Below are positions 17,452 to 43,032 of a stretch of 43,734 nucleotides of DNA, one piece after another. Each line of letters opens with the position of its first letter. Position 1 is the first letter of the stretch. The notes beneath the pieces are model-generated. The model did no database searches. It was given only the letters and a program-made list of their open reading frames with translations, and was not told the DNA's origin. Where the stretch lies: the NCBI GenBank assembly GCA_903879715.1, contig CAIRMR010000009.1:1-43734 (forward strand), written 5' to 3'. Source of the stretch: an uncultured Bacteroidales bacterium (lineage in GTDB: Bacteria > Bacteroidota > Bacteroidia > Bacteroidales > UBA4417). The position numbers and the translations under genes were made by a program.

Positions 17452-17538
17452 CAGGTGAATTGTTCAAATAGTTTATACCGTATGAATACGCATCGAAAAA
17501 TAGTATCACAATTAAAACATTTACTAACTAATAAATTA

Positions 17539-23667: not shown

Positions 23668-23681
23668 TAAACTCTTTAACT

Positions 23682-26691: not shown

Positions 26692-29600
26692 ATGAGAAAT
26701 CTATTAATCATTTTTGTAATCAGCTTTCTATTTAACTTTTCAGCAAACTGCCAGGACTCAAAGGCAGGAAATATTCCGTTACCCGAGCATCCCCGTCCTG
26801 ATTATATGCGAACTGAATGGCTTAACCTGAATGGCTACTGGAATTTTATGTTTGATAAGGAGAACGTTGGGGAAAATCAAAAATGGTTTGAAAATCCGAC
26901 CGCTTTCACTAAAAAAATCCTGGTTCCTTTTCCCTGGGGAAGCAAACTTTCGGAAGTAGCCAATGAAGCTGATATTGCCTGGTATGCACGTAAAGTGAAG
27001 ATCCCTGAATCCTGGAAAAATAAACGGGTTTTTGTAGTAGTTGGTGCAAGCGACTGGGCAACAAGCGGCTGGTTTGCAGGTAAATCCCTGGGCTCAAATC
27101 GCGGTGGATACACGCCTTTTGAATTTGAACTTACCTCAGATATCATATGGGGTAGCGAACAAAACCTGGTATTTAAGGTTGATGACTCTCCATTACCATT
27201 CAAACTATTTGGGAAACAAGGTTATGGCGACGCTAAAGGCTTCTGGCAAACCGTTTACCTCGAAGCCCGCGGAAGCAACTACTTCGATATGATTCATTTT
27301 ACGCCGGATATTGATAACAATAAGGTTAAAGTAGAAATTGCGTTAAACAAACCCAGCGGAAAACAAACTGAAATCAGTATAAAATTCAACACCGGCATTG
27401 TGCCAATCTTCACAACAAAAATCAAAAAAGGCGAACAACTGGCTCAGTTTGAAATTGCTGTTCCCAATGCCCATTTGTGGGATCTCGACGACCCGTTTCT
27501 GTACGAAATAGAAGTAAGTCTTACCAATGAAGGAATAAAACAGGACAAAGTTTCCACATATTTTGGCATGCGGAAAATAAGCGTAACCAAACTTCCGGGA
27601 AGTGATTACCCTTATGTGGCCTTAAACAATAAACCCGTTTATCTGCAACTTACTCTCGATCAGTCCTATCATCCCGATGGATTCTATACATTTCCCAGCG
27701 ATGAGTTCATGCGAAATGAAATCCTGCTTTCAAAACAAATAGGTCTTAATGGAAATCGTATTCACGTTAAAGTCGAAGTTCCCCGAAAACTATATTGGGC
27801 TGATCGTTTGGGACTTCTGATCATGGCCGACGTTCCCAATTCGTGGGGCGAGCCCGATGCCGATATGCGCAGAGAATCAGAATCAGCGATGCGCGGTATG
27901 ATTAAGCGGGATTACAACCATCCTTCTGTTTTTTCGTGGGTTTTATTCAATGAAACATGGGGGCTTTTATCAACCAAAGAAGGGAAAGGTGCTTATCATC
28001 CTGAAACCCAGGCCTGGGTTACTGAAATGTATAAAAAAGCTAAACAACTAGATCAGAGCCGCTTGATTGAAGACAACTCACCTTGCGGTTACGACCATGT
28101 AGTTACAGATTTAAATTCGTGGCATGCCTACCTGCCGGGCTATGAATGGGGGAAAATACTTGATGATGTTGTGGCAAATACATATCCGGGTTCGAAATGG
28201 AATTACACCGGGGGAAATACGCAGGGGAACCAACCTATGCTTAACAGTGAATGTGGAAATGTTTGGGGCTACAATGGTGGCACCGGAGATATTGACTGGA
28301 GTTGGGACTACCACATTATGATGAATGAATTCCGGATGCATCCCAAAATGTGCGGTTGGCTGTACACCGAACATCACGATATGATCAACGAATGGAACGG
28401 GTATTATAAATTCGACCGTACCCGCAAATTCACCGGAATTGAAGAGCTTATGCCGGGAATGACACTAAACGATCTTCACAATCCTTATTATATAAGTACA
28501 GGAAGCGAACTGTGTCAAACGGCTCTTCCTTCAGCTAAAATTGACGTTCCGGTTTACTTGTCAGTTTTAAGTGATAAGCTTCCTGCAACAAATCTTATAA
28601 TAAAAGCAGAGTTATGCGGGTGGGATTTTCTCGGGCGGTTTGAAGTATATTCAAACTATTCGCTAAATATTCCTTACAGCCCCTGGATGACAAAAGACAT
28701 CGGCAAATTATCCATTCAAATGCCTGATAAACAATCTGTCGCTATTCTACGGATGAGTTTGGAAACAACTTCCGGACAGGTTTTATCCCGGAATTTTACA
28801 ACTTTCAAAGTGTCGGAAGGTCAATCGCCTCGGAGAGAAACAATTGAACAGGACGGCAAAAAAAATACCCTTTTGCGTTTCGCCCCCAATTCCTTCACAG
28901 CAGCAAAATGGACACTGAAGCAGTGGAATGTCCTCGATGGACTAAAAGTGAACGGAGCAGGATCGGGCTTTTTTGAATATAAAATTCTACTTCCTTCCAG
29001 TTTAAAAGCCGATGAACTTTCTTCAGCCAGGTTGATTGCAGAATTATCGTCCAAACAATTATTTGGGAAAGATAATGCAGGATCAGGCAAGATTGAAGGT
29101 GATTTTATGCTTGGCCAGGGAACAAACGACCCAGGCTTGAACCCCAACTCCTACCCTATGACCGATGAGAAAAAGTTTCCGGGAAAAGTGAGGATTTTTG
29201 TGAATGACACTTGTCTTGGTTCATTTTTACTTGAAGATGACCCGGCTGACCATCGCGGGATACTCTCCTGGAACGCTCAAAAACATGATAAAACATTAAA
29301 CGAAGTAGGTTCTTACGGTTATCTTGTTAAGGCAGATATTCCAATTGCAATTATAAAACAAAGTGAAGGAAAGGAGTTACTGGTTCGTTTTGAGGTTGAT
29401 TCAGTGCTCTCTTCCGGTTTGGCAATCTATGGCGAAGATTTCGGGCGATACCCTATAGATCCGACAATTTGCTTTGAATTTAGATCAGCGACTGATATCG
29501 ATAAATCGAAATCACAGGATGGCAGTGTAAATTCAAGAAACACTGTTAAAGGTAAAAATTCTCCATCCGGATTAAAAGTGAACCAATTACATCATCCACT

Positions 29601-32600
29601 TGCAGTTGATTCAAAACAGCCCCTCTTCAGTTGGAAAGTGAATAGCGATAAGAGGGGAGATTATCAAACGGCTTACAGAGTCACTGTAAGTTCCACAAAA
29701 GAAAAGGCCGAAAATAATGATTTTGACATCTGGGATAGCGGAAAAATTAAATCATCAGAACAAAGTGACATTATCTATGAAGGAATTCCTTTAGAAAGTG
29801 CTAAGGACTATTATTGGAAAGTCTGTAACTGGAATAGCCGCGGGACTCAAAGCGACTGGAGTGAAACTAACAGATTTGCAACGGGCTTTCTGTCGTGGCA
29901 GGAATGGAAGGGGGATTTTATCGGGGGAAAAGATCTTCAGCTTTTCAGAAAGGAATTCACAACTGACATAAATAAGACTATAACCGGAGCAAAACTTTAT
30001 ATCGGTTCATTAGGCGTCCCTGTAGTATTTGTCAATGGTGAGAAAGCAGGCAATTCAGTTCTTGATTCGGATGACAGGGTTGCACGGGAAACAAACTGGT
30101 ATAGTGGGTATGACGTTAGTAATTCTATTCGAAAAGGAAAGAATGCTATAGGTGTAATGATAGGACCTGGTCAGCTTGGTAGCGAATACAAAACACCCGA
30201 TAGTACCAGGTTTATTTTAAACCTCAAAATTATATATGCGGATGGCTCAGCAGATCTGATCACAACAGACAAATCCTGGAAAGCAACTAAGAATGGGCCA
30301 CTAGTCGCCGGGGAAATAAATAATGCAACAGCCGGCGAAAAGTACGATGCAAGGAATATAAAAAAAGGCTGGAATGAATCTAACTTCGATGATTATAACT
30401 GGGAAAGCGGCAATGCAATAAGTATAACCAGTAATAAAAAAACGCTGAAAGCACGACTGGCTCCTCCCATGAAAGTAGTTGAAACTCTTTCACCGCAAAG
30501 TATTACTGAAGTATACCACGGCACCTATGTTGTTGATGCAGGTAGAAATATAACAGGATGGGCACAAATCAAGATTGATGGTAAACCCGGAGATAAAATA
30601 GAAATGCGCTTTGCTGAGGATCATTCTACGCTCTGGAATGATTATACTTTTAGTGTTAGCGGGAGTATTTTGAGTGGCTCTGCAGGTATTTTGTTCAGGG
30701 CTGCAACTGAAAAAAACTTTTATTATTGGAAACTTACAACTGCAGGTAAAATAATTGCCTTCAGAAATGTAAATGGGGAAATGCAGGTTATTAAGGAAAT
30801 ACCTTGCAGTCTATCGCCAAATACAAAATACAAAATAGCGGTTAAAGCAATTGGAAATAAAATTGAAACCTATTGCAATAACAGTTTGATTGATACGATT
30901 TATGACAGCACTTTCTCAAGTGGAAAAGTTGGTTTCAGGGAAAGCGAATGCGACACCGCCACGTTTACTGATATCAAGGTCGTTCACGAAGCTTCAAATA
31001 AAACCTTACTCGAAAGCAGTGGTAAAAACCCCAGCCTTTGGTTAAATGGTGAAAACATCCGGAGCAAAAACGATATAGCATCCGGGAATCAACTTGAAAT
31101 AACCAACAGCGATTATGTTATCTCGCGTTTTGGTAATGTAAATGGGGGAATAGAGCAAACTTCATTGAGTATAGCCGGTTTTGTCCCGGATGCAATGGGT
31201 ACCGGTGCTGAGCAATATGATTACTATATTCACGGTGGCTATGGCGTTGAAACCTGGGAGCCATTTCAGACGATTCATGGATTCAGATACCTGGAAGTAA
31301 AAGGTATTAGCGGATTTGACAATGATAATATTAAAATCAGAATAGCGCACCACGCTGTTGATGAAGAAACTGATAACCTGGGTTCATTTACGTGCTCAAA
31401 TCCGCTACTAAACGATTTGTACACTGCTTCTACATCAAGTATTAAGTCAGCTCTTCAGTTTGGTATCCCGGCAGCATGTGTTTCACGTGATGAGCGCAAC
31501 GGATGGACCGGCGATGCTGAATGTACATCCCAGGCAGCTAATTATTACGCAAATATGGAGCCCTTTTATAAACAGTGGTTTGTAAGCATGAGGGAAACCC
31601 AGCACAGCGATGGATATATTGATAATCTTGCACCCAGGCAAGGTGAGAGAGCAGGGGCAATAGAGGAGGACATTCCCTGGTCATCAGCAGCTATAAATGT
31701 AACATGGGATACCTATCTTGCTTCGGGCGATAAATCGATAATCAGAGAGCAGTACAGCTCAATGAAAAGGTTTATTGACTGGTGCGTTACCACTTCAAAT
31801 GTTTCAGCAAGCACTGAAAATTATGAGGATTATACAACCAACAAGGATTGCTGGGGCGATTACGGTTCTATACTTCAAAAAGATTATTGTTGCCCGGTCC
31901 GAATGCCTGAGCAGAGTGTCTGGGCTACCGCTTTTTTTTATAATTCCACAGTCAGACTATCAGTGCTTGCAGAGGAGATAGGTAAAACAGATGATAGTCA
32001 GGAGCTTAGAAATCTCGCATTGAAAATTCAAAGTGCGTACAATAAGAAATTCTTAAAAGAGGATGACAAAGGGGCTTATTATTTCGATAATTCCCAGGCT
32101 GCAAATGCAATTCCTTTAGCATTCGGACTCTGTCCTGAGAATAAAAAGGCGGAGGTTGCCAGGCATCTTGTCAGCTCACTTGAAAATGCTGATTACAGCC
32201 TGACGGTTGGGGTACTAGGTCTTTATGCCATATTTGATGCATTGTGTGATAACGGGTGCACAGATGTTGCATATAAACTGGTTTCTAAAAAAACATACCC
32301 AAGCTGGGGAAATATGATTAGCCAGGGAGCAACTTCCATGTGGGAATTCTGGGATGGGCGCGGTTCTCACAATCACATGTTCGTAGGTGGAAAGATGAAT
32401 GCCTTTTTAATTAAAAATCTGGCAGGCATTTCTTCACTAAAATCCGGATACACTGAAGTTTTGATTAAGCCTGGAGTTGTTGGCGACTTAACTAATGTAA
32501 AAGCAAGTACATTCTCTCCAAAAGGAAAGATTGAATCTGAATGGATAAAAACCTCCAACAATAGCATTTCAGTAAAGACTTTAATTCCTGTAAACTGCAC

Positions 32601-32790
32601 AGCAAATATTTATGTTCCCTTATTAGAAAATAAAGCCTCGGATGTTGTTGTTTCCGAAGGGAACACGGAAATTTACCGAAAAGGAATAAAGAAAGACACT
32701 GAAATCATAAAATTCATTGCGGAAAAAGATGGATGTTTAGTATTTAAAATTGCCTCTGGTAGGTATGAATTTGATTTAAACAAAAAATAA
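26692..32790 (+). CDS. GH2-GH78 fusion enzyme with an inserted lectin-like domain
   Basis: 2032 residues, signal peptide ending near FSANC. Residues about 35-610 are a GH2 enzyme (jelly-roll, Ig-like, TIM barrel) with acid/base Glu421 in FNETWG and nucleophile Glu520 in MLNSECGN. A linker sandwich (about 610-950) follows. From about 958 a complete GH78 starts (SGLKVNQLHHPLAVD); its barrel keeps SRDERNGWTGDAE (Asp1600, Glu1601, Asp1608) and QGATSMWEFWDG with a downstream SHNH segment, so it should be an active alpha-L-rhamnosidase. Between MRFAEDH (about 1310) and the resumption at YDYYIHGG (about 1500) an extra concanavalin-like domain is inserted. GH2 members include beta-galactosidases and beta-glucuronidases, so this could remove two neighbouring sugars in sequence. 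The stop is two bases before the next gene, a cytoplasmic methyltransferase. Confidence 0.9.
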   Translation: MRNLLIIFVISFLFNFSANCQDSKAGNIPLPEHPRPDYMRTEWLNLNGYWNFMFDKENVGENQKWFENPTAFTKKILVPFPWGSKLSEVANEADIAWYARKVKIPESWKNKRVFVVVGASDWATSGWFAGKSLGSNRGGYTPFEFELTSDIIWGSEQNLVFKVDDSPLPFKLFGKQGYGDAKGFWQTVYLEARGSNYFDMIHFTPDIDNNKVKVEIALNKPSGKQTEISIKFNTGIVPIFTTKIKKGEQLAQFEIAVPNAHLWDLDDPFLYEIEVSLTNEGIKQDKVSTYFGMRKISVTKLPGSDYPYVALNNKPVYLQLTLDQSYHPDGFYTFPSDEFMRNEILLSKQIGLNGNRIHVKVEVPRKLYWADRLGLLIMADVPNSWGEPDADMRRESESAMRGMIKRDYNHPSVFSWVLFNETWGLLSTKEGKGAYHPETQAWVTEMYKKAKQLDQSRLIEDNSPCGYDHVVTDLNSWHAYLPGYEWGKILDDVVANTYPGSKWNYTGGNTQGNQPMLNSECGNVWGYNGGTGDIDWSWDYHIMMNEFRMHPKMCGWLYTEHHDMINEWNGYYKFDRTRKFTGIEELMPGMTLNDLHNPYYISTGSELCQTALPSAKIDVPVYLSVLSDKLPATNLIIKAELCGWDFLGRFEVYSNYSLNIPYSPWMTKDIGKLSIQMPDKQSVAILRMSLETTSGQVLSRNFTTFKVSEGQSPRRETIEQDGKKNTLLRFAPNSFTAAKWTLKQWNVLDGLKVNGAGSGFFEYKILLPSSLKADELSSARLIAELSSKQLFGKDNAGSGKIEGDFMLGQGTNDPGLNPNSYPMTDEKKFPGKVRIFVNDTCLGSFLLEDDPADHRGILSWNAQKHDKTLNEVGSYGYLVKADIPIAIIKQSEGKELLVRFEVDSVLSSGLAIYGEDFGRYPIDPTICFEFRSATDIDKSKSQDGSVNSRNTVKGKNSPSGLKVNQLHHPLAVDSKQPLFSWKVNSDKRGDYQTAYRVTVSSTKEKAENNDFDIWDSGKIKSSEQSDIIYEGIPLESAKDYYWKVCNWNSRGTQSDWSETNRFATGFLSWQEWKGDFIGGKDLQLFRKEFTTDINKTITGAKLYIGSLGVPVVFVNGEKAGNSVLDSDDRVARETNWYSGYDVSNSIRKGKNAIGVMIGPGQLGSEYKTPDSTRFILNLKIIYADGSADLITTDKSWKATKNGPLVAGEINNATAGEKYDARNIKKGWNESNFDDYNWESGNAISITSNKKTLKARLAPPMKVVETLSPQSITEVYHGTYVVDAGRNITGWAQIKIDGKPGDKIEMRFAEDHSTLWNDYTFSVSGSILSGSAGILFRAATEKNFYYWKLTTAGKIIAFRNVNGEMQVIKEIPCSLSPNTKYKIAVKAIGNKIETYCNNSLIDTIYDSTFSSGKVGFRESECDTATFTDIKVVHEASNKTLLESSGKNPSLWLNGENIRSKNDIASGNQLEITNSDYVISRFGNVNGGIEQTSLSIAGFVPDAMGTGAEQYDYYIHGGYGVETWEPFQTIHGFRYLEVKGISGFDNDNIKIRIAHHAVDEETDNLGSFTCSNPLLNDLYTASTSSIKSALQFGIPAACVSRDERNGWTGDAECTSQAANYYANMEPFYKQWFVSMRETQHSDGYIDNLAPRQGERAGAIEEDIPWSSAAINVTWDTYLASGDKSIIREQYSSMKRFIDWCVTTSNVSASTENYEDYTTNKDCWGDYGSILQKDYCCPVRMPEQSVWATAFFYNSTVRLSVLAEEIGKTDDSQELRNLALKIQSAYNKKFLKEDDKGAYYFDNSQAANAIPLAFGLCPENKKAEVARHLVSSLENADYSLTVGVLGLYAIFDALCDNGCTDVAYKLVSKKTYPSWGNMISQGATSMWEFWDGRGSHNHMFVGGKMNAFLIKNLAGISSLKSGYTEVLIKPGVVGDLTNVKASTFSPKGKIESEWIKTSNNSISVKTLIPVNCTANIYVPLLENKASDVVVSEGNTEIYRKGIKKDTEIIKFIAEKDGCLVFKIASGRYEFDLNKK

Positions 32791-32792
32791 CT

Positions 32793-33896
32793 ATGAAATC
32801 AAGAGAACGTGTTCTTAAAGCATTTAAAAAGATGCCGGGATTACCCGACAGGGTCCCAGTACAATTTGATTTGTGCCGCCAGTTAGCCGATCATTTCGGA
32901 AAACAATTGGGTATTCCGGTTCACTACACCGAAAATCCGTACGAAGATGTTACTTACCGTATCAGTGCCAACGAATTACGTGTAGCAATGGGCAGCGATG
33001 TGGTAATTACCGGTGCTTCGGTTTCGGATGATTATACCATCGTTAAAGATGCCAATGGAACCTGGCTTAATGAGTATAAAATGAGGATGCGGCAGGGTGA
33101 TATCTATGTTGAAGTGGTCGAATATCCTCTGGCTCACGCTGAAACAAAGGCTGACATCGAAACCTTTCAATTCCCTGATCCTGATGCACCAGGGCGATAC
33201 AGGGATGCAGAAGCGTTGGTGAAAAAGTATAAAAATGATTATCTGATAATAGGAGATATTGAAGTAACCATTTTCTCACTTGCCCATCAGTTGGCTGGCA
33301 TGGAGAAACTATTGGTTGATATGATGATGGAGACAGAATATGTAATGCCTTTGTTCGAAGCCTGTGCCGAGTACCAGACACAAGTTGGCCTGCGACTCAT
33401 CGAAAAAGGAGTGGATGCAATCTGGTTTGGCGACGACTTCGGTACACAAACCAGTTTGATTCTTCCACCTGAAACCTTTCGTGAACAACTGAAGCCACTT
33501 TACAAACGAATGATCGATCGCTTTAAAGAAGCTAAGCCTGACATTATTCCAATCCTGCATTGCGACGGGGCAGTAGCAGAACTTCTGGATGACATCCGCG
33601 AAATGGGTTTCGAGATTTTTAACCCGGTTCAGCCCGGCGTTCCAGGGCATTTGCCTCATGATATGAAAGAGCGGTTTGGTGAAAAGTTCGCTTTCTGGGG
33701 TGCCATAGATCAGCAGGATTTGCTGCCTAATGCTACGGATGAAGAGCTGGAAAATGATATCATTGAAAAGATAAGCATTCTGGGCAAAGGAGGTGGATAC
33801 ATGATAGCTCCTGCACACATTCTTCAAAACGACATTTCGCCTGAACGTGTGTTAAAATTTATTGAGTTGTGCAAAAAACATGGCTGTTACAAGTGA
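32793..33896 (+). CDS. UroD-fold corrinoid methyltransferase (candidate methyltransferase I)
   Basis: 367 residues, no signal peptide, cytoplasmic. The fold is the uroporphyrinogen decarboxylase/MtaA superfamily: start SRERVLKAFKK, then IIGDIEVTIFSLA, IWFGDDFGTQT, IPILHCDGAVAELLDDI and YMIAPAHILQNDIS. These closing motifs resemble UroD-type O-demethylase methyltransferases rather than heme-pathway HemE. It lacks the H-x-C...C zinc site of the thiol-methylating MtaA/MtbA type, so it is a candidate for the substrate-side enzyme that moves a methyl group from an O-methylated compound to the corrinoid protein at 38212. The ATG lies two bases after the stop of the GH2-GH78 gene, so the two are almost certainly co-transcribed, linking glycan hydrolysis to methyl transfer. 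The substrate is unknown. Confidence 0.8.
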   Translation: MKSRERVLKAFKKMPGLPDRVPVQFDLCRQLADHFGKQLGIPVHYTENPYEDVTYRISANELRVAMGSDVVITGASVSDDYTIVKDANGTWLNEYKMRMRQGDIYVEVVEYPLAHAETKADIETFQFPDPDAPGRYRDAEALVKKYKNDYLIIGDIEVTIFSLAHQLAGMEKLLVDMMMETEYVMPLFEACAEYQTQVGLRLIEKGVDAIWFGDDFGTQTSLILPPETFREQLKPLYKRMIDRFKEAKPDIIPILHCDGAVAELLDDIREMGFEIFNPVQPGVPGHLPHDMKERFGEKFAFWGAIDQQDLLPNATDEELENDIIEKISILGKGGGYMIAPAHILQNDISPERVLKFIELCKKHGCYK

Positions 33897-33968
33897 GGCT
33901 CTTAATAGCGCAACCAGAGAAATCAACTTTAATAAATCGTATTAAAATTAACTAAAAATAGAAATTAT

Positions 33969-34076
33969 ATGGCTAAAGTAGGATTATTTGGAATTGGCCT
34001 CGATACCTATTGGGTACAATTCGACGGATTACTCTATAATCTGAAACTGCCAGGATTGTGCGTGCTGAGTGGATAA
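33969..34076 (+). pseudogene. Truncated 5' copy of the sugar isomerase gene
   Basis: The first 78 bases match the start of the isomerase at 41620-41697 with about seven differences and no gaps (MAKVGLFGIGLDTYWVQFDG). The similarity then stops abruptly and the frame ends after nine unrelated codons at a TAA (34074-34076). The bases upstream of the two starts do not match. It is a 35-codon remnant, probably non-functional, left by a duplication or rearrangement. It lies directly behind the UroD-type methyltransferase, suggesting that an ancestral isomerase gene once stood there. Confidence 0.88.
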
Positions 34077-34135
34077 TAAGACAAATAAATGAAAAAAGCT
34101 GTAAATAAAAATAAACCATTAAAATAAAACCAAAA

Positions 34136-37100
34136 TTGAACAGACTTCTTTCCATTATCGCAATTATAGTGACCTTATTTATAGGCAGCTGCACTCAAAA
34201 CAAGAACGAATCGGCATTTTCGGACTTGAAGAAAGGGTTTCTAAACCCTCCCGATTCTGCACGCCCAGGCGTTTACTGGTACTTTATGGACGGGAACATA
34301 TCGAAGGAAGCCATAACAGCCGACCTGGAATCAATGAAAAAGGTTGGCATTGGCACTGTACTTTTTCTTGAGGTTAATGTTGGTATTCCCCGCGGGAAAG
34401 TTGACTTCATGAGCGAAGAATGGATGAACTTGTTTACCCATATTGTTCGTGAGTCAGAACGATTGGGAATAACAATTACCCTTGGTGTTGGTCCAGGTTG
34501 GACAGGTAGCGGAGGCCCTTGGGTTACAGGTGCACAATCCATGAAACACCTGGTATGCAGTTCAATACAAGTTTCCGGATCTGAAAACAAACCAATTGTT
34601 CTTCCCAAACCTACAGCAATGAATCCCTATTTTGGGGAGGGTTCATTCACACCCGAACTTAAACAAAAATGGCTCGATTATTATGAAGATGTTGCAGTGC
34701 TTGCTTTTCCAACACCCGCTGGCAATTTTAAAATAAGCGACATTACTGAGAAAGCACTGTATTACCGCGAGCCTTACTCTGGAGGGGCCGTTAAGCCATT
34801 TCTTCCATCCCTTGCAAACTATAGTGAACCAATTAACGGAACAGCAATTTTCCAGGATAAAATAATTGATGTAACTCAGTACTTGAAACCGGATGGAACA
34901 TTGCAATGGAAAGCCCCCGATGGTAATTGGACAATTATGCGTTTTGGAAGCAGAAACAACGGTGCTGTTACCCGCCCAGCTCCAATGCCAGGTGTAGGAT
35001 TTGAAGCTGATAAATTTGACACTGCAGCCATCAATGCACATATGGCAAGTTTCACCGGTAAGTTACTTCAAAAAACCGGAATTCCTGATAAGAATCTCCA
35101 GGGAGGCTTAAAAATGCTGCACATGGACAGCTGGGAAATGGGTGCTCAAAACTGGACATTACGATTTAGAGAAGAATTTAAAAAAACGCAGGGGTTATGA
35201 TCCGCTTCCTTTTTATCCGGTTTATGCCGGGTTCGTAGTTGAAAGTCTTGAAAAGAGTGAGCGTTTTTTATGGGATTTACGGCAAACGGCGCAGGAACTG
35301 GTAATTGAAAACCATGCTATCCACCTGAAAAATTACGCTAAAAAATACAACATGGGATTTTCAATTGAACCTTACGACATGAACCCAACCGCCGACATGG
35401 AACTGGGAGCCGTGGCTGATGTTCCCATGTGTGAATTCTGGAGCATAGGATATGGGTTCAACACCTGGTTCAGTTGCATTCAAGCAGCGTCCATTGCCCA
35501 TATTGAAGGCAAAAAAGTGGTTGCAGCTGAGGCTTTTACCGCTTATCTTGATGCCTGGAGGCAATATCCCGGATCAATGAAGGATCAGGGAGACTGGGCG
35601 TTTGCTGCTGGAATCAACAAGTTTATGTACCATACCTATCAGCATCAGTTTTTGCCGGATAATCTTAAACCAGGAATGACCATGGGTCCTTATGGTGTTC
35701 ATCATGACCGCAGCCAGACCTGGTGGCCTATGGTGGACGGATACCATAAATATGTTTCCCGTTGTCAGTATATTCTACAACAGGGACAAACAGTAGCCGA
35801 CATTCTTTACCTCTCACCGGAAGGGGCACCCCAGGTATTCCGTGCACCATCTTCTGCCTTAACAAAGGATGCATTTCTTCCCGACCGGAAAGGCTATAAC
35901 TTTGATGGCTGCTCGCCTTCCGAACTATTAAAAGCATCCATTGTTGACGGAAAAATCGTATTCCCTTCAGGGGCTTCATACTACATACTCGTATTGCCTA
36001 AAACTGAAACAATAACTCCGGCTTTACTCAACAAGATTGACGCATTGGTCAAGGCCGGTGCTGTAATTATAGGAAATCCTCCGCGTAAATCTCCCAGCCT
36101 GGTGAATTATCCCGAATGTGATAAACAAGTTGCTACAATATCCGCGTCGATGTGGGGAGGAACAACCGCACCTTCAAAAATTGCAGAACGAAAACTGGGG
36201 AAAGGAAAAATCTTCTGGGGAGGTGCTTTCTCGCAGTTCATCCTGCCTGAGCTTTACCCGGACTATGATGCCACAGCTTCAATTCTCCTCGAAATGGGGA
36301 TAGCGGAAGATTTTGGATCAGATAGTTCTGTAAGATACACGCATAAACTTATCAAGGACGGAGAAATTTATTTTGTTTCAAACAAAACCAATGCTACGTT
36401 AAAAGCCAGCTGTTCATTCAGGGTAAGCGAAGGAACACCCGAATTATGGAATCCGATGACTGGAGAAACAAGAAAACTTCCTGATTTCGAAATTAAGAAA
36501 GGTCTGATTCAGATTCCACTTCAATTTGATTCTCACGAAAGTTATTTTATTGTTTTTAATAAAAGCAGTAAAACAAAACCAGGCCACACAGCAGGTCTGA
36601 AAAATTTTGCCCAACCGCAAGTTTTATTTGAAGTGAATAATCCATGGAAGGTATCCTTTAATCCGAAATGGGGTGGGCCCGAAAATGTTGTTTTCGATAA
36701 ACTTGTTGACTGGACATCGCGGCCTGAAGATGGCATAAAATACTATTCAGGAATTGCAACCTATCACAATACAATAAAGCTTTCTGAAAATGTTACTACG
36801 GAGAAAAAATCTGATATTTATCTTGATTTGGGAGAAGTCAACAACCTGGCGCGTATTCGTGTAAACGGCAAAGATATGGGTGTTGTATGGACTGCTCCTT
36901 TCCGCATAAAAATTACAGATGCTGTTGTTACTGGCGACAACCAGGTAGATATTGAAGTCGCCAACCTGTGGACAAACCGGTTGATCGGCGATGAGAAGAA
37001 ACCGGATGACGGAATTAAAGACGGGCAATGGCCTGAATGGCTACTAAACGGGAAACCAAGAACATCCGGACGGTTTACTTTTACAACTTACAAGCATTAC

Positions 37101-37184
37101 AATGCCGATTCACCTTTGTTGAAATCAGGTTTAATAGGACCTGTTCGAATATTAAGTACCCGAACTTATAAAAGTGAAAACTAA
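34136..37184 (+). pseudogene. GH106-like gene interrupted by a single frameshift
   Basis: Two overlapping frames (34136-35200 and the +1 frame ending 37184) together make one GH106-type protein of about 1015 residues. The first part has a lipoprotein leader (LFIGSC), then RPGVYWYFMDGNISKEAI and MLHMDSWEMGAQNW; it ends prematurely just after a run of seven A at 35180-35186. Removing one A continues the protein as FKKRRGYDPLPF, then FSIEPYD, AAEAFTAY and a C-terminal jelly-roll (LARIRVNGKDMGVVW). All key segments are intact outside this point. The start is TTG at 34136, with no in-frame ATG before it. A real mutation, a sequencing homopolymer error, or slippage on the A7 run could each explain it. 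If restored, it would be a lipid-anchored alpha-L-rhamnosidase-like enzyme only distantly related to the two copies upstream. Confidence 0.85.
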
Positions 37185-37226
37185 AATAAGTCTCAGCATA
37201 CAAAATACAAATAGAAAACTATCATC

Positions 37227-38108
37227 ATGACACTTACTGAAAGAATTGAAAGCCGTAAAATATTAATCCTGGATGGTGCCACAGGATCCGAACTAATTGC
37301 CCGTGGATTAATTGCTGGAGAATGCCCGGAACTTTGGAACATTTCTCATACTGAAATAATTAAGGATATTTCGGCATCTTATTTTGCTGCAGGTTCTGAT
37401 GCTGTACTGACTAACACATTTGGCGGATCGTTATTGAAACTGAGGGCCTATAATCTGGAAAGCCAGGCTTATGAGTTGAATTTTTGGGGTGCCAGAAATG
37501 CCATTTCTGTTAAACCTGAAGGAAAGTTTGTTATTGGCTCCATAGGTCCGAGCGGGTTGATGTTAGAGCCTTTTGGTGACATAACATACCAGGAAATGAC
37601 AGATTCTTTTGTTGTGCAGGTTAAAGCCATGACTGATGCAGGCGTTGATGGATTTATGCTCGAAACATTTACCGATCTGGAGGAAATAAAATGTGCAATA
37701 TGTGCTGTAAAAGAGAATTCAGATCTTCCGTTCTTTGCTTCCATGACATTCAGCAATACTCCTGATGGCCATAAAACGATGATGGGTGTGAGCGTAACGG
37801 ATTTTGTTGAAGCAATGCAAAGTGCAAATGCTCTGTTAGTCGGATCAAATTGTGGCAACGGAATTCTGAAAATGATTGATCTGGCCAAAGAGTTCAGGAG
37901 TGTGTCCGCCACTATTAATTTACTGCTCAAAGCAAACGCAGGTGAGCCTCATCTTCACGATGGCGTTCTTTGTTATTCGGAATCGCCTGAAATGTTTGCT
38001 TCAAATTTAACCGATCTCCTGGCAATTTCACCTTCAGCAGTCGGTGGTTGTTGCGGAACAAACCCGGAGCATATCAGGAGGATAAAACAGGTGATTGAAA
38101 CAGTTTAA
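37227..38108 (+). CDS. Homocysteine S-methyltransferase (MetH N-terminal-domain type)
   Basis: 293 residues, cytoplasmic. It matches the homocysteine-binding zinc domain of MetH/betaine-homocysteine methyltransferases: ILDGATGSELIARG at the start, NTFGGS, VIGSIGPSG, GSNCGNG with Cys209, and VGGCCGTNPEHI with Cys275-Cys276. These three Cys are the zinc ligands that activate homocysteine. As a free-standing domain beside a separate corrinoid protein (38212) and a separate activation domain (39939), it looks like part of a split methionine synthase lacking the folate-binding module. It would take the methyl group from methylcobamide and make methionine. First gene of the cassette, 42 bases after the broken GH106-like gene. 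I saw no cobalamin riboswitch in its short leader. Confidence 0.88.
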   Translation: MTLTERIESRKILILDGATGSELIARGLIAGECPELWNISHTEIIKDISASYFAAGSDAVLTNTFGGSLLKLRAYNLESQAYELNFWGARNAISVKPEGKFVIGSIGPSGLMLEPFGDITYQEMTDSFVVQVKAMTDAGVDGFMLETFTDLEEIKCAICAVKENSDLPFFASMTFSNTPDGHKTMMGVSVTDFVEAMQSANALLVGSNCGNGILKMIDLAKEFRSVSATINLLLKANAGEPHLHDGVLCYSESPEMFASNLTDLLAISPSAVGGCCGTNPEHIRRIKQVIETV

Positions 38109-38211
38109 TTTTGATGTTTTCAACCAGTTATTACTTTTATGATAAAAATGTATAATTTACCTGAAATCGAATTTTCAGAACTCATTACAATAAGATAAAT
38201 ACCAAAATACG

Positions 38212-38880
38212 ATGAACGAACTACTTGAAAAGTTATCACTTGCTGTTGAATCAGGGAAAATAAATAAGCTTTCGCCTTATCCCCCTGCAATGAGGGGGTT
38301 GGACGGAGCTGATGAACTGTGTCAGCAAGCACTTGAAGCAGGAATCAAACCTGAAGTCATTTTAAATGATGCCTTAATACCGGGTATGGGTCGTATAGGG
38401 AAGAAATTTTCCGATGGTAAAGCATTTGTGCCCGAAATGCTTATTGCTGCCAAAGCTATGTCAGCAGCTTTGAAACACATTAAGCCATTTTTTACTTCAG
38501 GCGAAGTGAAACGCAAAGGTGTTTTCGTAATAGGAACTGTTATGGGCGATTTGCACGACATTGGTAAAAATCTGGTAGCTATGATGATAGAGGGATCCGG
38601 ATGGGAAGTTATTGACCTTGGCGTGGATGTAAAACCTGAAAAATTCCTGGAAGCTATTAACCAACATCCTGACTGTGTAATCGGATTGTCTGCGCTCCTT
38701 ACAACTACCATGGTGAATATGGAAACTATCGTAAAACAAATCAGAGCTCAATATCCTGATCATAAAATATTGGTCGGGGGGGCACCTTTATCGCATGATT
38801 TCTGTAAAAAAATTGGCGCTACTTTCTATTCTTCAGATCCTCAGGGTGCAGTTGAATTCCTTGAAAGGTCAGTTGCATAA
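38212..38880 (+). CDS. Corrinoid-binding protein (MtaC/MetH-module type)
   Basis: 222 residues. An N-terminal helical cap (about 1-90) precedes a Rossmann-like B12-binding domain with GDLHDIGKN, whose His115 is the lower axial cobalt ligand in base-off corrinoid proteins. The following GLSALLTTTM and VGGAPLS segments are also typical. Such proteins carry the methyl group as methyl-Co(III) between a substrate-specific methyltransferase and an acceptor enzyme. It is flanked by a homocysteine methyltransferase and an MtaA/MtbA-type enzyme, which fit as acceptor-side partners; the UroD-fold protein at 32793 is the best candidate donor-side partner. Confidence 0.92.
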   Translation: MNELLEKLSLAVESGKINKLSPYPPAMRGLDGADELCQQALEAGIKPEVILNDALIPGMGRIGKKFSDGKAFVPEMLIAAKAMSAALKHIKPFFTSGEVKRKGVFVIGTVMGDLHDIGKNLVAMMIEGSGWEVIDLGVDVKPEKFLEAINQHPDCVIGLSALLTTTMVNMETIVKQIRAQYPDHKILVGGAPLSHDFCKKIGATFYSSDPQGAVEFLERSVA

Positions 38881-38931
38881 TATTAGCAAAATGAAGTAGT
38901 CAAGGTTCATTTGTACTTTAAATCATAAAAC

Positions 38932-39942
38932 ATGAATAATAACTCCGATTGGATAGTTGAATTGCTTGCCGCAAAGAAACGGTATGCAATTCCAATTATG
39001 ACTCATCCCGGCATCGATTTGATAGGAAAAAGTGTAAAAGAAGCTGTATCAAACGGAGAAATTCATTTTCAGGCAATTCAGGCACTGAATATAAAATATC
39101 CTGCGGATGCTGCTACCATAATTATGGATTTAACTGTTGAAGCTGAAGCATTTGGATCAATAATAAACCTTCCTGAACATGAAGTCCCCACTGTTTTAAA
39201 ACGGATAGTGTCCGATGCCGAAACGGTTGATGCTCTTAAAGTGCCTGGCCTGGACGCCGGGCGGATCCACGAGTATTTATTGGCGGCTCGTCTGGCTGCA
39301 CAAAATATCACTAATAAACCTGTATTTGCCGGATGTATAGGTCCCCTTTCGTTGGCTGGCCGTCTTTATGATATGACGGAACTTATGACGGCACTTTTTA
39401 TTGAGCCGGAAGTTATACAAACACTTCTTGAGAAATGTACTGAGTTTATAATAAATTATATACGTGCATTTAAAGAAACCGGGGTAAATGGAATTATAAT
39501 GGCTGAGCCGGCTGCCGGATTATTATCGGAGGATATGTGCGATGAGTTCTCGTCTAAATATATCAGGCAAATTGTCACTTTGTTGCAGGATGAAACTTTT
39601 ATGATAATTCTGCATAACTGTGGAAATAAAGGGCATTTGACCAGGTCAATGGTTTCAACCGGTGCTCAGGGCTTGCACTTTGGGAATGCTGTTAATATGG
39701 CTGATGCCCTTGCCGAAATTCCAACAGGTATTATCGCCATGGGAAATCTCGACCCGGTAAATGTTTTTAAAATGATGAATCCCAAGCAACTGTATCGTTC
39801 CACAACTGAACTTTTACAAAAAACCAGGGGGTACAATAATTTTGTCATCTCTTCGGGATGCGATACACCTCCCAATGTTCCGATAGCAAATATTGATGCT
39901 TTTTATCAGGCAATTACTGATTTTAATAAATCACTAAATTGA
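38932..39942 (+). CDS. MtaA/MtbA-type UroD-fold methylcobamide methyltransferase
   Basis: 336 residues, cytoplasmic. It carries the zinc-site motif of MtaA/MtbA enzymes: ILHNCGNKG (His228, Cys230) and SSGCDTPPNVP (Cys310), with spacing close to H237/C239/C316 in MtbA. Family members transfer a methyl group between methylcobamide and a zinc-activated thiol. Bacteria of this kind are not expected to use coenzyme M, so the partner thiol is open; alternatively it could demethylate a methyl donor in the reverse sense. It differs clearly from the UroD-fold protein at 32793, which lacks these ligands, so the locus holds two distinct types. Its TGA overlaps the TTG start of the next gene by four bases. 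Confidence 0.88.
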   Translation: MNNNSDWIVELLAAKKRYAIPIMTHPGIDLIGKSVKEAVSNGEIHFQAIQALNIKYPADAATIIMDLTVEAEAFGSIINLPEHEVPTVLKRIVSDAETVDALKVPGLDAGRIHEYLLAARLAAQNITNKPVFAGCIGPLSLAGRLYDMTELMTALFIEPEVIQTLLEKCTEFIINYIRAFKETGVNGIIMAEPAAGLLSEDMCDEFSSKYIRQIVTLLQDETFMIILHNCGNKGHLTRSMVSTGAQGLHFGNAVNMADALAEIPTGIIAMGNLDPVNVFKMMNPKQLYRSTTELLQKTRGYNNFVISSGCDTPPNVPIANIDAFYQAITDFNKSLN

Positions 39943-40637
39943 AAACAATAGCTGTAAAAGAGATTTCATTTGAAGAACTTACGCTAACCCGCGAAGATGT
40001 TATTCCTCTTTTGGGCGGCGAATCGGATTATGCATTTTTAATGCACGAATATCTGGATACCCTCTTTGAACTAGGCAAACAGATATTTCAGATTAAAGGT
40101 GGTTACCAGGTGTTCGATAAGCTGGCATTTAACCAGGAAAGGCAAGAAATTACCATAGGGGATATAACTTTCGATGTTAAAAAGGTGGTTTTCAATATGC
40201 TTAGGCGAAGCAGTAAGATTGCGGTATTTGTATGCACGGCTGGCGATCAAATCCATGAATTATCGAGGCAGTATATGGCAGAAGGCGATATGCTGAAAGG
40301 ATATGTGTATGACTTATTCGGTTCGCTTGTTGTGGAAAGTGCCATGGATTTGGTTCAGAATTCACTCAAGTCAGATTTGAATAGTGAAGGACTTACTTTA
40401 ACTAACAGGTATAGCCCCGGCTACTGCGGCTGGACCGTTGACCAGCAAAAAAATCTGTTTGCTCTTTTTCATCCGGAATTTGATTTTGTTAAACTATCAG
40501 ATAGTTGCCTGATGCAGCCGATAAAATCGGTAAGCGGATTTATTGGTATCGGGCACGATGTTAAATATAATGATTATACCTGCCATATTTGTGACTCAAG
40601 CAATTGTTTGTATAAAAATCTTAAAAAACAAGGCTGA
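39939..40637 (+). CDS. Stand-alone MetH activation-domain protein (corrinoid reactivation)
   Basis: 232 residues, start TTG at 39939 overlapping the previous stop by four bases, which implies translational coupling. It resembles the C-terminal AdoMet-binding activation domain of MetH, with RYSPGYCGWTVDQQ in the place of the RxxPGY signature and then SCLMQPIKSVSGF. MetH uses this domain to reductively remethylate oxidised cob(II)alamin with AdoMet. Here it would rescue the corrinoid protein at 38212 when the cobalt is oxidised by accident. The tail adds CHICDSSNC (C-x2-C-x4-C), possibly an iron-sulfur or zinc site; MetH lacks it. As a free-standing protein it replaces the covalently fused domain, supporting the split-methionine-synthase reading. 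Confidence 0.85.
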   Translation: MKTIAVKEISFEELTLTREDVIPLLGGESDYAFLMHEYLDTLFELGKQIFQIKGGYQVFDKLAFNQERQEITIGDITFDVKKVVFNMLRRSSKIAVFVCTAGDQIHELSRQYMAEGDMLKGYVYDLFGSLVVESAMDLVQNSLKSDLNSEGLTLTNRYSPGYCGWTVDQQKNLFALFHPEFDFVKLSDSCLMQPIKSVSGFIGIGHDVKYNDYTCHICDSSNCLYKNLKKQG

Positions 40638-40676
40638 AATGAAAACACTTAAAAAAAATCCTATATAATCTGTAAA

Positions 40677-41201
40677 ATGAGAAAATCTGAACTTACACCA
40701 AAAATTTACGTAGTAATAATGATGATCTTTACCGGAGCTATGATGCGACTTATTCCCCACTGGCCCAACTTTACCCCGATCGCTGCAATAGCATTATTTG
40801 GTGGTACTTTTATTAAACGTAAGGACCTGGCATTTCTTATACCGGTTGTGGCAATGTTATTAAGCGATCTGATTATTGGATTTCATTCAACCATGTTTCC
40901 TGTTTACCTGAGTTTCATTGCTATTGTGGCTATTGGATTAGCATTGCAACGAAGGCTTACTGTCGTGAATACGCTTTCCGCCTCCCTGGCAGCATCAGTT
41001 TTGTTTTACCTGGTTACAAATTTAGCAAGCTGGACTTCAGGGTTGATGCCTTATCCTATGAATGCTTCAGGCCTGATGCAATCTTACATTGCGGGTCTGC
41101 CATTCCTGTTTAATGGAATTCTTGGGGATTTGTTTTACACATCTGCCCTTTTCGGATCGGCATACCTGGTAACAAACCGTCAGACAGTTTATGTGAAATA
41201 A
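40677..41201 (+). CDS. DUF6580-type integral membrane protein, possible transporter
   Basis: 174 residues with about five hydrophobic segments (for example IYVVIMMIFTGAMM, LAFLIPVVAMLLSDLII, VYLSFIAIVAIGLAL) and little soluble sequence. It fits the DUF6580 family of putative transport proteins, which in size and layout resemble the substrate-binding (S) subunits of ECF vitamin transporters. Its place, 39 bases behind the corrinoid activation protein, suggests import of a cobamide, cobalt or other cofactor needed by the cassette, but this rests on context. No ECF ATPase or T subunit is in the window. Confidence 0.7.
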   Translation: MRKSELTPKIYVVIMMIFTGAMMRLIPHWPNFTPIAAIALFGGTFIKRKDLAFLIPVVAMLLSDLIIGFHSTMFPVYLSFIAIVAIGLALQRRLTVVNTLSASLAASVLFYLVTNLASWTSGLMPYPMNASGLMQSYIAGLPFLFNGILGDLFYTSALFGSAYLVTNRQTVYVK

Positions 41202-41619: not shown

Positions 41620-43032
41620 ATGACTAAAGTAGGATTATTTGGAATTGGCCTCGATACCTATTGGGCACAATTCGACGGATTGCTGGGCAATCTGAAAACG
41701 TACCAGGAACAAATCAAAAACCGTATTGCCGGATATGGCGTTGAGGTTGTGGATGCAGGAATGGTTGATAACCCGGTGAGAGCCCGAGAAGCTGCCGACT
41801 ACCTGAAATCGCAGGACGTTGAAATTGTCTTTTTGTATGTTTCAACATATGCATTGTCGTCAACCGTTTTACCGGTAGCGCAAAAGTTGAAAGTTCCGGT
41901 GGTAATTCTGAACCTTCAGCCGGTAGCTGAACTCGATTACGACGCTTTCAACAAACTTGGTGACCGCGGTAAAATGACCGGAGTATGGCTGGAGCATTGC
42001 CAGGCCTGCTCAGTACCTGAAATTGCCAGCGTATTTAACCGCTCCGGAATTCAATACGATTTTGTAACAGGATACCTGCAGGATGAAGAAGCCTGGCGTG
42101 AAATCGAAGCCTGGACTGAAGCCGCCCGCGTTGCCGCAGCCATGCGGAATAACCGTTTGGGTGTTTTGGGCCATTATTACTGTGGAATGCTTGATGTGTA
42201 CACCGACATGACTAAACAATCGGCCGTTTTTGGCACCCACATCGAACTGCTCGAGATGTGTGAGCTGAAGAAATACCGTGACGAAGCTACCGATGCCGAA
42301 GTTCAGTCTAAAATACAGGAATTTGCTACTGCTTTTGATGTGGCTCCGGAATGTGAAAGCTATGAAATCGAGCGAGCTGCGCGCACTTCAGTAGCCTTGG
42401 ACATGTTGATTAAAAAACGCAACCTGGGCTCAATGGCCTATTATTACGAAGGCGAATCGGGCAACGATTACGAAAATATAGCCACCTCGGTGATTGCCGG
42501 AAACACTTTGCTTACAGGCAAAAACATTCCGATTGCGGGCGAGTGTGAGGTGAAAAATGCCCAGGCAATGAAAATCATGGCCGAATTTGGTGCCGGCGGT
42601 TCATTCTCTGAATTTTACCTGATGGATTTCAAAGACGACGTGGTAATGCTTGGTCACGATGGACCAGCACATATGGCCATTGCCGAAGGGCGCGTGAAAC
42701 TTGTTCCACTATCTGTCTTTCATGGAAAACCTGGAAAAGGCTTGTCCATTCAGATGAGTGTAAAGCATGGCCCTGTTACTTTATTGTCGGTGGTTGAAGG
42801 CAATGATGGTATATTCCTCCTGGTAGCTGAAGGTGAATCGGTTGCCGGACCAGTGCTTGAAATAGGCAATACCAACAGTCGTTACCGTTTTTCAACCGGA
42901 GCTAAAAAGTTCATGAACGAATGGTCGAAAAAAGGACCTGCTCATCATTGTGCTATAGGAGTTGGACATATTGCACATAAGATTGAAAAACTCGGGCAGA
43001 TTTTAAGTATTGAAGTAGTGAAGATTTCTTAG
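41620..43032 (+). CDS. L-arabinose/L-fucose isomerase-family protein
   Basis: 470 residues, cytoplasmic. It belongs to the arabinose/fucose isomerase superfamily (aldose-ketose isomerases with a bound Mn2+). An N-terminal Rossmann-like domain (VGLFGIGLDTYWAQFDG, VEIVFLYVSTYALSS) is followed by NLQPVAELDY, IPIAGECEVKNAQAMK (candidate metal Glu), LGHDGPAHMAIAEG and HHCAIGVGH (candidate metal His). Bacteroidota carry many such paralogues beside rhamnose, fucose and arabinose degradation genes, and the exact sugar cannot be fixed. Here it would channel the monosaccharide freed by the extracellular enzymes, perhaps after O-demethylation. A truncated copy of its 5' end lies at 33969. It has its own long leader, suggesting separate transcription from the corrinoid cassette. 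Confidence 0.85.
   Translation: MTKVGLFGIGLDTYWAQFDGLLGNLKTYQEQIKNRIAGYGVEVVDAGMVDNPVRAREAADYLKSQDVEIVFLYVSTYALSSTVLPVAQKLKVPVVILNLQPVAELDYDAFNKLGDRGKMTGVWLEHCQACSVPEIASVFNRSGIQYDFVTGYLQDEEAWREIEAWTEAARVAAAMRNNRLGVLGHYYCGMLDVYTDMTKQSAVFGTHIELLEMCELKKYRDEATDAEVQSKIQEFATAFDVAPECESYEIERAARTSVALDMLIKKRNLGSMAYYYEGESGNDYENIATSVIAGNTLLTGKNIPIAGECEVKNAQAMKIMAEFGAGGSFSEFYLMDFKDDVVMLGHDGPAHMAIAEGRVKLVPLSVFHGKPGKGLSIQMSVKHGPVTLLSVVEGNDGIFLLVAEGESVAGPVLEIGNTNSRYRFSTGAKKFMNEWSKKGPAHHCAIGVGHIAHKIEKLGQILSIEVVKIS

Follow-up and report, generated by a model that had tools for sequence, protein, structure and literature searches.

The window analysed here, the whole 43,734-nucleotide contig CAIRMR010000009.1 (C9) of an uncultured Bacteroidales bacterium (assembly GCA_903879715.1, here G000; 6.07 Mb, 99.6% complete), carries at its right end a unit of corrinoid methyl-transfer genes embedded in a glycan-degradation locus. 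The function that we favor for this unit, with a probability of roughly 0.6 on the strength of sequence comparisons, is the removal of O-methyl groups from an L-rhamnose- or L-fucose-type monosaccharide (2-, 3- or 4-O-methyl-L-rhamnose or 2-O-methyl-L-fucose, for example) that would be freed by rhamnosidases and imported by a transporter. We consider it a little better than an even bet that this is a widespread, oxygen-independent route for O-methyl-L-rhamnose and O-methyl-L-fucose, built on a distinct UroD clade with a His-x-Asp...His motif in five phyla and proceeding via a corrinoid protein; the Bacteroidota would pass the methyl group directly to homocysteine and so couple polysaccharide breakdown to methionine synthesis. 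The components of the unit are the following.

32793..33896, + strand: UroD1 (P0001), a UroD-fold protein, proposed O-methyl-deoxyhexose:corrinoid methyltransferase on the donor side (URO-D 1.8e-24, structural model, clade and operon linkage)
37227..38108, + strand: HMT (P0004), a homocysteine S-methyltransferase, proposed acceptor side (S-methyl_trans 4.9e-61; Cys209/275/276)
38212..38880, + strand: CORR (P0005), a stand-alone corrinoid protein with DLHDIGKN (B12-binding 3.4e-25, B12-binding_2 1.5e-18)
38932..39942, + strand: UroD2 (P0006), MtaA/MtbA-like with His-x-Cys...Cys, a second acceptor-side or a donor-side enzyme (URO-D 8.7e-56)
39939..40637, + strand: ACT (P0007), a stand-alone MetH-type activation domain, proposed reactivase of CORR (Met_synt_B12 2.2e-08; PDB 1j6r 4.9e-09)
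40677..41201, + strand: DUF6580 membrane protein (P0008; Pfam DUF6580 3.3e-50)
41620..43032, + strand: ISO (P0009), of the L-arabinose/L-fucose isomerase superfamily, proposed to use the demethylated sugar (Fucose_iso_C 1.1e-07, Arabinose_Iso_C 1.8e-07)

An earlier note, made from the DNA letters alone, had recognized the first six proteins and read them as a candidate anaerobic system for sugar O-demethylation. Open reading frames and Pfam bear out all six starts and families, as well as the three Cys of HMT, the DLHDIGKN of CORR, the H-x-C...C of UroD2 and the stand-alone activation domain of ACT; the observation itself is confirmed, and the interpretation overall is partly supported. The isomerase is part of the unit too, being present again in both the second copy and the congener described below.

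One line of evidence for our reading is the company kept by UroD1 in other genomes. A contig scan with UroD1 gave 80 loci, the best 80 of at least 560. Twenty-four of them, at ≥45% identity, together with four places in G000 (two), G009 and G037, form a close set of 28; the other 56 loci are called distant. A maximum-likelihood tree was built from 42 sequences, of which 21 belong to the close set; these 21 make up a single clade (support 100/100) with members in Bacteroidota, Verrucomicrobiota, Omnitrophota, Bacillota and Chloroflexota, the taxonomy being taken from record titles because most members are metagenome bins. Deoxysugar genes (E ≤ 1e-10) lie near 17 of the 28 close places and near 5 of the 56 distant UroD genes (p 9e-7). 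The clade members are related, so that this and the following p-value serve only as guides; the query genes for deoxysugar functions and mutarotase were partly drawn from close loci, and without self-matches the deoxysugar count is still 17/28. Homologs of rhamnose mutarotase (E ≤ 1e-4) accompany 9/28 close places, in four phyla, and none of the 56 distant ones (Fisher p 2e-5); here the close set was searched as 31 stretches, the three extra ones being additional pieces from genomes already in the set, and nine had a match. In seven of these nine cases the homolog lies no more than about 40 bp from UroD1, the gaps in L036, L095 and L098 having been taken from match edges and being up to 3 bases too long. 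The window's genome has three RhaA genes and one good rhamnulokinase match, below its cut-off, and the mutarotase family also occurs near two of these RhaA genes (L252, L253), which fits its name. So tight a pairing of UroD1 with a rhamnose-mutarotase homolog could also arise if the methyl donor were a methyl glycoside (1-O-methyl) instead of a sugar methylated elsewhere on the ring, the mutarotase handling the single anomer released. Ordinary glycosidases could already remove a 1-O-methyl group, however, and we give this alternative very little credence.

An Anaerolineae stretch (L109) reads, in order, FucI, FucU, a nucleotidyltransferase-like gene, a DeoR-like gene, UroD1, a rhamnose-mutarotase-like gene, a rhamnulokinase-like gene, an ABC ATPase, two permease-like genes and a RhaS-like gene, with a gap of 21 bp on the 3' side of UroD1 (nucleotidyltransferase-like and LacI-type genes, and MtaB-like genes other than that of L236, were assigned throughout from N-termini and size alone). 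FucI is matched by PF07882 at 3.1e-91 and FucU at 155 bits, above the curated cut-off of 141; the rhamnulokinase (9.1e-150), RhaS (3.6e-96) and rhamnose-mutarotase (3.7e-18) matches all fall under their curated cut-offs. A second Anaerolineae stretch (L106) is arranged almost identically, and a Clostridia operon (L097) runs isomerase (38% identical to ISO), binding protein, ABC ATPase, permease-like gene, UroD1 and mutarotase homolog. In the Bacteroidota, UroD1 is often near GH106 or GH78 rhamnosidases; G037, for instance, has an intact mutarotase homolog 10 bp 5' of UroD1 and a GH106 gene after it. GH106 is the commonest family (5 members) among 74 near-neighbor reading frames of the close loci, a tally that covers 22 of the 24 (L098 and L100 are absent). 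A second tally comprised 94 hand-picked frames of 177, with some corrinoid and UroD neighbors dropped and five distant loci left without neighbors; only the top 25 families were considered in each. The recurrent linkage to sugar genes that the earlier note had proposed to look for was thus found in several phyla. The association of UroD1 with importer, mutarotase and kinase genes in Anaerolineae and Clostridia narrows the probable substrate to a free monosaccharide. The suggestion that the methyl groups derive from O-methylated sugars or methoxylated glycosides and end on homocysteine gains from the deoxysugar linkage and from the position of HMT near CORR, while its methoxyflavonoid variant has become less likely.

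The structural comparison places UroD1 nearest to a methyltransferase. Its AF2 model (pLDDT 96) has as top Foldseek match the Methanosarcina mazei methyltransferase 4ay8/4ay7 (4ay8 E 1.4e-14, TM 0.70/0.75; 17-18% identity in the structural alignments), followed by uroporphyrinogen decarboxylases. A phmmer search of the PDB with the single sequence had no match, a profile being required; the UroD1 profile reaches 4ay7, which is MtbA-type, at 3e-17. Residues H256-C-D258-G and H342 fill the three positions of the MtbA-type His-x-Cys...Cys site: the His-Ile-Cys-Gly of 4ay7 faces His-x-Asp-Gly, and its later Cys faces the position of His342. We take the His/Cys/Cys residues of 4ay7 to be the zinc ligands of MtbA, and UroD1, as had been noticed earlier, is without these thiol-zinc ligands, His/Asp/His standing in their place. 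H256 and H342 are invariant in 42/42 aligned homologs, and position 258 is Asp in 21/21 close-clade members (13 Asp and 8 Cys among the other 21).

GH78 and GH106 enzymes can act on plant rhamnosides, and UroD1 might for that reason be imagined to demethylate methoxylated aromatic aglycones, of flavonoid rhamnosides for example, once rhamnosidases have freed them. The known aromatic O-demethylases MtvB, OdmB and VdmB are themselves members of the UroD superfamily according to the available text of PMC13222342. Nevertheless, CdmB (9rui), a close relative of the aromatic enzymes, is matched by the UroD1 profile at E 0.11 only, against 3e-17 for 4ay7; no aromatic-degradation family figures among the first 25 of 79 neighbor families; and in Chloroflexota and Clostridia UroD1 is found in sugar-importer, mutarotase and kinase operons. 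We consider an aromatic substrate improbable, and an aromatic O-demethylase by close descent was rejected for want of a significant CdmB match.

A corrinoid protein (E ≤ 1e-30) is present in 21/21 of the close-set UroD1 genomes searched, which represent 21 of the 24 close loci (L100, L105 and L108 were left out). Among 60 relatives, 10/12 genomes with a UroD1 homolog have a stand-alone corrinoid protein, versus 3/48 without, and 7/12 versus 1/48 have the isomerase. A stand-alone corrinoid protein was defined here by ≥44% identity and an open frame of <300 amino acids, which excluded G018, G032, G033, G038, G048 and others with weaker matches or longer frames; the isomerase was counted at E ≤ 1e-70 only, which left out weak matches in G015, G038, G044 and G058. 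In the Anaerolineales stretch L102 UroD1 stands 27 bp before CORR, and in L113 a 39% UroD1 homolog lies 44 bp from it. In 7/12 UroD1-bearing Bacteroidota genomes outside the window's genus, namely G037, G404, G405, G407, G410 (Mariniphaga anaerophila), G416 and G419, an HMT homolog (39-47%) is encoded no more than a few kb from CORR; none was found near CORR in the searched stretches of G406, G408, G409, G411 and G424.

Several further corrinoid loci deserve record in their own right. In Mariniphaga anaerophila (L224:6925-8544) a 539-residue UroD-thioredoxin fusion is encoded between the corrinoid protein and the homocysteine methyltransferase, and in other genomes homologs of this fusion turn up together with a CobW-like protein. 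An L-fucose isomerase gene adjoins the gene for the genome's corrinoid protein (C370:3179-3721) in G422 (L246:1139-2959). In G418 (L239:8197-9201 and 13195-14457) the corrinoid protein adjoins a GFO/IDH/MocA oxidoreductase, and the neighborhood also has an alcohol dehydrogenase and a UroD protein 64% identical to that of G270; this is perhaps a system for O-methyl polyols.

The partner proteins have the following features. Cys209, Cys275 and Cys276 of HMT are invariant in 7/7 aligned sequences, which supplies the three zinc Cys, and its nearest solved relatives are the homocysteine domains of MetH-type enzymes. In UroD2, H228-N-C230 and C310 are invariant in 9/9 aligned orthologs; MtbA and MtaA are its nearest named families, with scores under their cut-offs, and the zinc-thiol motif suggests a thiol substrate. 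ISO matches AraA structures in the PDB (best E 1.9e-07). The DUF6580 gene was seen, among the loci examined, only alongside this unit in G000 and G009, and the predicted model of its product has a pLDDT of 41. No MtaB is present among the Pfam-scanned reading frames of the window. The earlier assertion that all four roles of an O-demethylase are represented (donor-side and acceptor-side methyltransferases, corrinoid protein and reactivating protein) stands insofar as each role is filled, with the qualification that UroD2 may be either a second acceptor-side or a donor-side enzyme.

The unit itself is repeated. On contig C83 of the same genome HMT, CORR, UroD2, ACT, DUF6580 and the isomerase recur in window order, followed by a reading frame of unclear family, a SASA-type esterase and a UroD1 that is 90% identical, with a GH106-like protein in the locus; the proteins of the two copies are 83-98% identical. 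In G009, a member of the same genus, the cassette and UroD1 are on different contigs, UroD1 in the company of GH78, and the copies in C83 (L010) and G009 (L035) show 82-98% protein identity. Duplication within the genome and presence in G009 put the association beyond chance. Of the 15 further genomes in this genus, G009 alone is matched strongly by UroD1 (2.5e-220); the match in G008 is weak (1.2e-23), and the remaining genomes gave none.

One could nonetheless regard HMT, CORR, UroD2 and ACT as a split methionine synthase or a general methyl-salvage module that happens to lie in a glycan locus, with UroD1 a mere passenger. The homocysteine, corrinoid and activation modules do match those of MetH, and split systems with separate modules are known (MtgC/MtgD/MtgE of Ruegeria; PMC12478193, available text). 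We nevertheless hold this explanation to be unlikely. The window's genome already has a full-length MetH-type frame of 1240 amino acids with MetH activation and B12 domains, which should make a further HMT superfluous for ordinary methionine synthesis. Pfam detects no pterin-binding domain or family among P0001-P0009, the rest of the genome not having been searched for one. As for the passenger, the block occurs in two glycan loci of the window's genome and again in G009, and UroD1 is independently linked to rhamnose/fucose operons and to corrinoid genes in other phyla. A simple split methionine synthase was rejected on the presence of the full-length MetH frame and the lack of a pterin module in the cassette.

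UroD2 has a wider distribution of its own. Counting the window's own, 23/393 genomes of the order have a match at E ≤ 1e-40, and in 20 UroD2 stretches from other genomes (L067-L086) its frequent companions are CORR, ACT and other UroD proteins. A row in G270 comprises GH106, ACT, UroD2, CORR, a GH29 fucosidase, a UroD1-like gene (27%), a rhamnose-mutarotase homolog and RhaT, and in L069 and L072 a mutarotase homolog is next to a UroD1-like gene. From these contexts UroD2 may be a partner that several donor enzymes share. L073:8274-9854, close to the genes for UroD2 and a corrinoid protein, encodes a fusion of a CobW GTPase with a MetH-type activation domain.

Several observations weigh against a deoxysugar-demethylating unit, or at least restrict it. 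Eleven of the 28 close places have no listed deoxysugar gene at E ≤ 1e-10 (L088, L089, L090, L091, L092, L094, L095, L096, L105, L108 and L110); some are short contigs, but L089, L091, L092, L094 and L095 are about 21 kb. Among them, L095 has a mutarotase homolog at 7e-10, which passes the mutarotase limit and misses that for deoxysugar genes, and L094, from Alistipes, has CORR, ACT and UroD2 2-5 kb from UroD1 in place of deoxysugar genes. The 20 UroD2 stretches hold no HMT match. Only in G000, for both copies, are UroD1 and HMT encoded on one contig; elsewhere HMT is with CORR in a locus separate from UroD1, and in G009 on a different contig. The split GH106 gene beside UroD1 indicates that the window's copy is partly eroded. 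Lastly, the corrinoid gene of G406 adjoins an MtaB (PF12176, 2.5e-158) with a RACo-type activator near, and G405, G408 and G409 appear similar from protein size and N-terminus; the 21/21 co-occurrence may therefore partly reflect methanol systems. This part of G406, with the MtaB methanol methyltransferase beside the corrinoid gene and the RACo activator nearby, is L236 (6207-7583 and 3755-5245).

This last point leads to the question of whether the window's unit could be a system for methanol (from pectin) or for a methyl thiol or thioether, in which UroD2 would do the principal work, by analogy with MtaB systems or type 1 mlp clusters. Several relatives do have corrinoid genes 59-63% identical to P0005 beside proteins of ~460 amino acids, MtaB being recognized in the one that was checked by Pfam (L236), and UroD2 resembles MtbA; the Mlps have been proposed to be S/Se-methyltransferases (PMC10418091, partial text). 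Yet the lack of MtaB among the window's Pfam-scanned frames speaks against methanol, the 17-18% identity of UroD1 to 4ay7/4ay8 is below the 25% that the same partial text uses to define Mlps, and UroD2 has a divergently oriented LacI-type regulator gene in five stretches (L068, L070, L071, L084 and L086) and stands with GH29, GH106 and RhaT in G270. Such a system seems to us highly improbable here, and in G406 and the genomes that resemble it one corrinoid carrier may serve several donors.

If the unit acts on O-methyl deoxysugars, the scheme may be as follows. UroD1 would bind the methylated sugar and pass the methyl group to Co(I) of CORR, the His256/Asp258/His342 triad activating the ether oxygen either through a held metal or by acid catalysis. 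Methyl-CORR would then be used by HMT to convert homocysteine to methionine, as the clustering and the three Cys suggest. UroD2 would be a second zinc-thiol methyltransferase working on the same CORR, most likely methylating another thiol or sharing the acceptor role, and ACT, to judge from its family, would rescue Co(II)-CORR by MetH-style reductive methylation. The free sugar would proceed to isomerase, kinase and aldolase. A 2-O-methyl group blocks aldose-ketose isomerization, so that for a 2-O-methyl sugar demethylation must precede the isomerase.

Polysaccharides of plants, algae and bacteria commonly contain O-methylated deoxysugars. P450 oxidation, which needs oxygen, was the only demethylation route for such sugars that appeared in our literature search, limited to the texts available; a search for corrinoid demethylation of O-methyl sugars found none, although it was not exhaustive and absence from print is unproven. 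No P450 (PF00067) was matched in the window's genome, in a search whose control was positive in 7/14 genomes, and P450 demethylation was rejected here. The proposal of an anaerobic, oxygen-independent alternative to P450 would hold in its second adjective; the first is not established, for the genome has five COX1-family (haem-copper-oxidase-type) matches, and the pathway need not be confined to anaerobes. If our reading is right, a corrinoid route explains the use of O-methyl deoxysugars without oxygen, UroD methyltransferases gain a new substrate class, and polysaccharide degradation becomes tied to one-carbon and methionine metabolism. The analysis supplies proteins that can be tested, three residues as a candidate active-site triad and, as a named isolate, Mariniphaga anaerophila DSM 26910.

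The right end of the window reads GH2-GH78, UroD1, isomerase remnant, broken GH106, HMT, CORR, UroD2, ACT, DUF6580 and isomerase. Upstream, by Pfam, are a sulfatase, GH32, two GH106-type genes, DUF4450, GH127, two genes without a Pfam family, an alpha/beta-hydrolase, a weak GH43, GH78 and the GH2-GH78 fusion. The glycosidases and remnants nearest to the unit are these.

23616..26576, + strand: GH78 alpha-L-rhamnosidase, upstream in the locus (Pfam)
26692..32790, + strand: GH2-GH78 fusion, ending 2 bp short of UroD1 (Pfam)
33969..34046, + strand: N-terminal isomerase remnant of 26 residues, 88% identical to 41620-43032 (sequence match)
34136..35200, + strand: 5' portion of a GH106 alpha-L-rhamnosidase gene that a frame change interrupts (Pfam GH106 1.1e-77)
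35142..37184, + strand: remaining 3' portion of that GH106 gene, in a different frame (Pfam GH106 3.8e-97)

The remnant straight after UroD1 suggests that an isomerase gene probably used to stand immediately behind UroD1; G037 likewise has its isomerase in fragments, about 7 kb from UroD1. The two overlapping GH106 frames and the preceding remnant (33969-37184) are signs of a recombined, eroding junction. No cobalamin riboswitch was found at the locus. Two proteins of the glycan locus, at 17455-19254 (599 residues) and 19354-21165 (603 residues), are 36% identical to each other and have no Pfam match, and a Group II intron match (RF00029, 51.9 bits) lies at 51-132, at the left end of the contig.

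Among known systems the nearest are those of MtvB/OdmB/VdmB, MtoB and CdmB, which, in the available text of PMC13222342, combine a UroD-superfamily donor enzyme, a corrinoid protein, a separate acceptor enzyme and an activator. The window unit, like these acetogen and archaeal O-demethylases and CdmB, has candidates for all four components. The known O-demethylase and haloalkane systems act on methoxy-aromatics or haloalkanes and employ a tetrahydrofolate acceptor enzyme and RACE-type activators (PMC10418091, partial text). The window unit differs in its deoxysugar context, in its HMT and MtbA-like acceptor candidates and in its MetH-type activator domain, and P0001-P0009, by Pfam, include neither a tetrahydrofolate acceptor enzyme of the pterin-binding fold nor a RACE-type (Fe-S, ATP-dependent) activator, the rest of the genome not having been searched for either. 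UroD1 was compared with the aromatic donor enzymes via their relative CdmB only, and that match is insignificant; MtbA/MtaA (4ay7) provides its nearest solved fold, as it provides the nearest named families, below cut-offs, for UroD2, and differs from UroD1 in having His/Cys/Cys where the latter has His/Asp/His. Marine bacteria demethylate 6-O-methyl-D-galactose oxidatively with a P450, releasing formaldehyde (PMC10033563, available text). As in that route, the methyl group would here be taken off an O-methyl sugar after polysaccharide breakdown, in a genome, however, that is without P450. The glycine betaine system MtgBCDE of Ruegeria has a PF06253 donor enzyme and a pterin module (PMC12478193, available text). 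The resemblance is that a catabolic methyl group may pass via a stand-alone corrinoid protein to a separate homocysteine module; the cassette has neither PF06253 nor a pterin family, so that of the parts of a split methionine synthase it has the homocysteine (P0004) and corrinoid (P0005) modules and not the third. Type 1 mlp clusters have several Mlps and a RACE activator and no tetrahydrofolate methylase, and the main text of their description, so far as available, does not mention a sugar link (PMC10418091). The cassette shares with them an MtbA-like protein, a corrinoid protein, an activator and the lack of a tetrahydrofolate methylase, and departs from their Mlp2, Mlp3 and RACE composition in having one MtbA-like protein and no RACE-type family. 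With its UroD-type donor-side protein (P0001) and its stand-alone DxHxxG corrinoid protein (P0005), the unit belongs with the corrinoid methyltransferase systems in general and, judged by its sequences, is best called a system of that type, with a proposed donor from a new UroD clade associated with deoxysugar use, and not one of the classical acetogen type.

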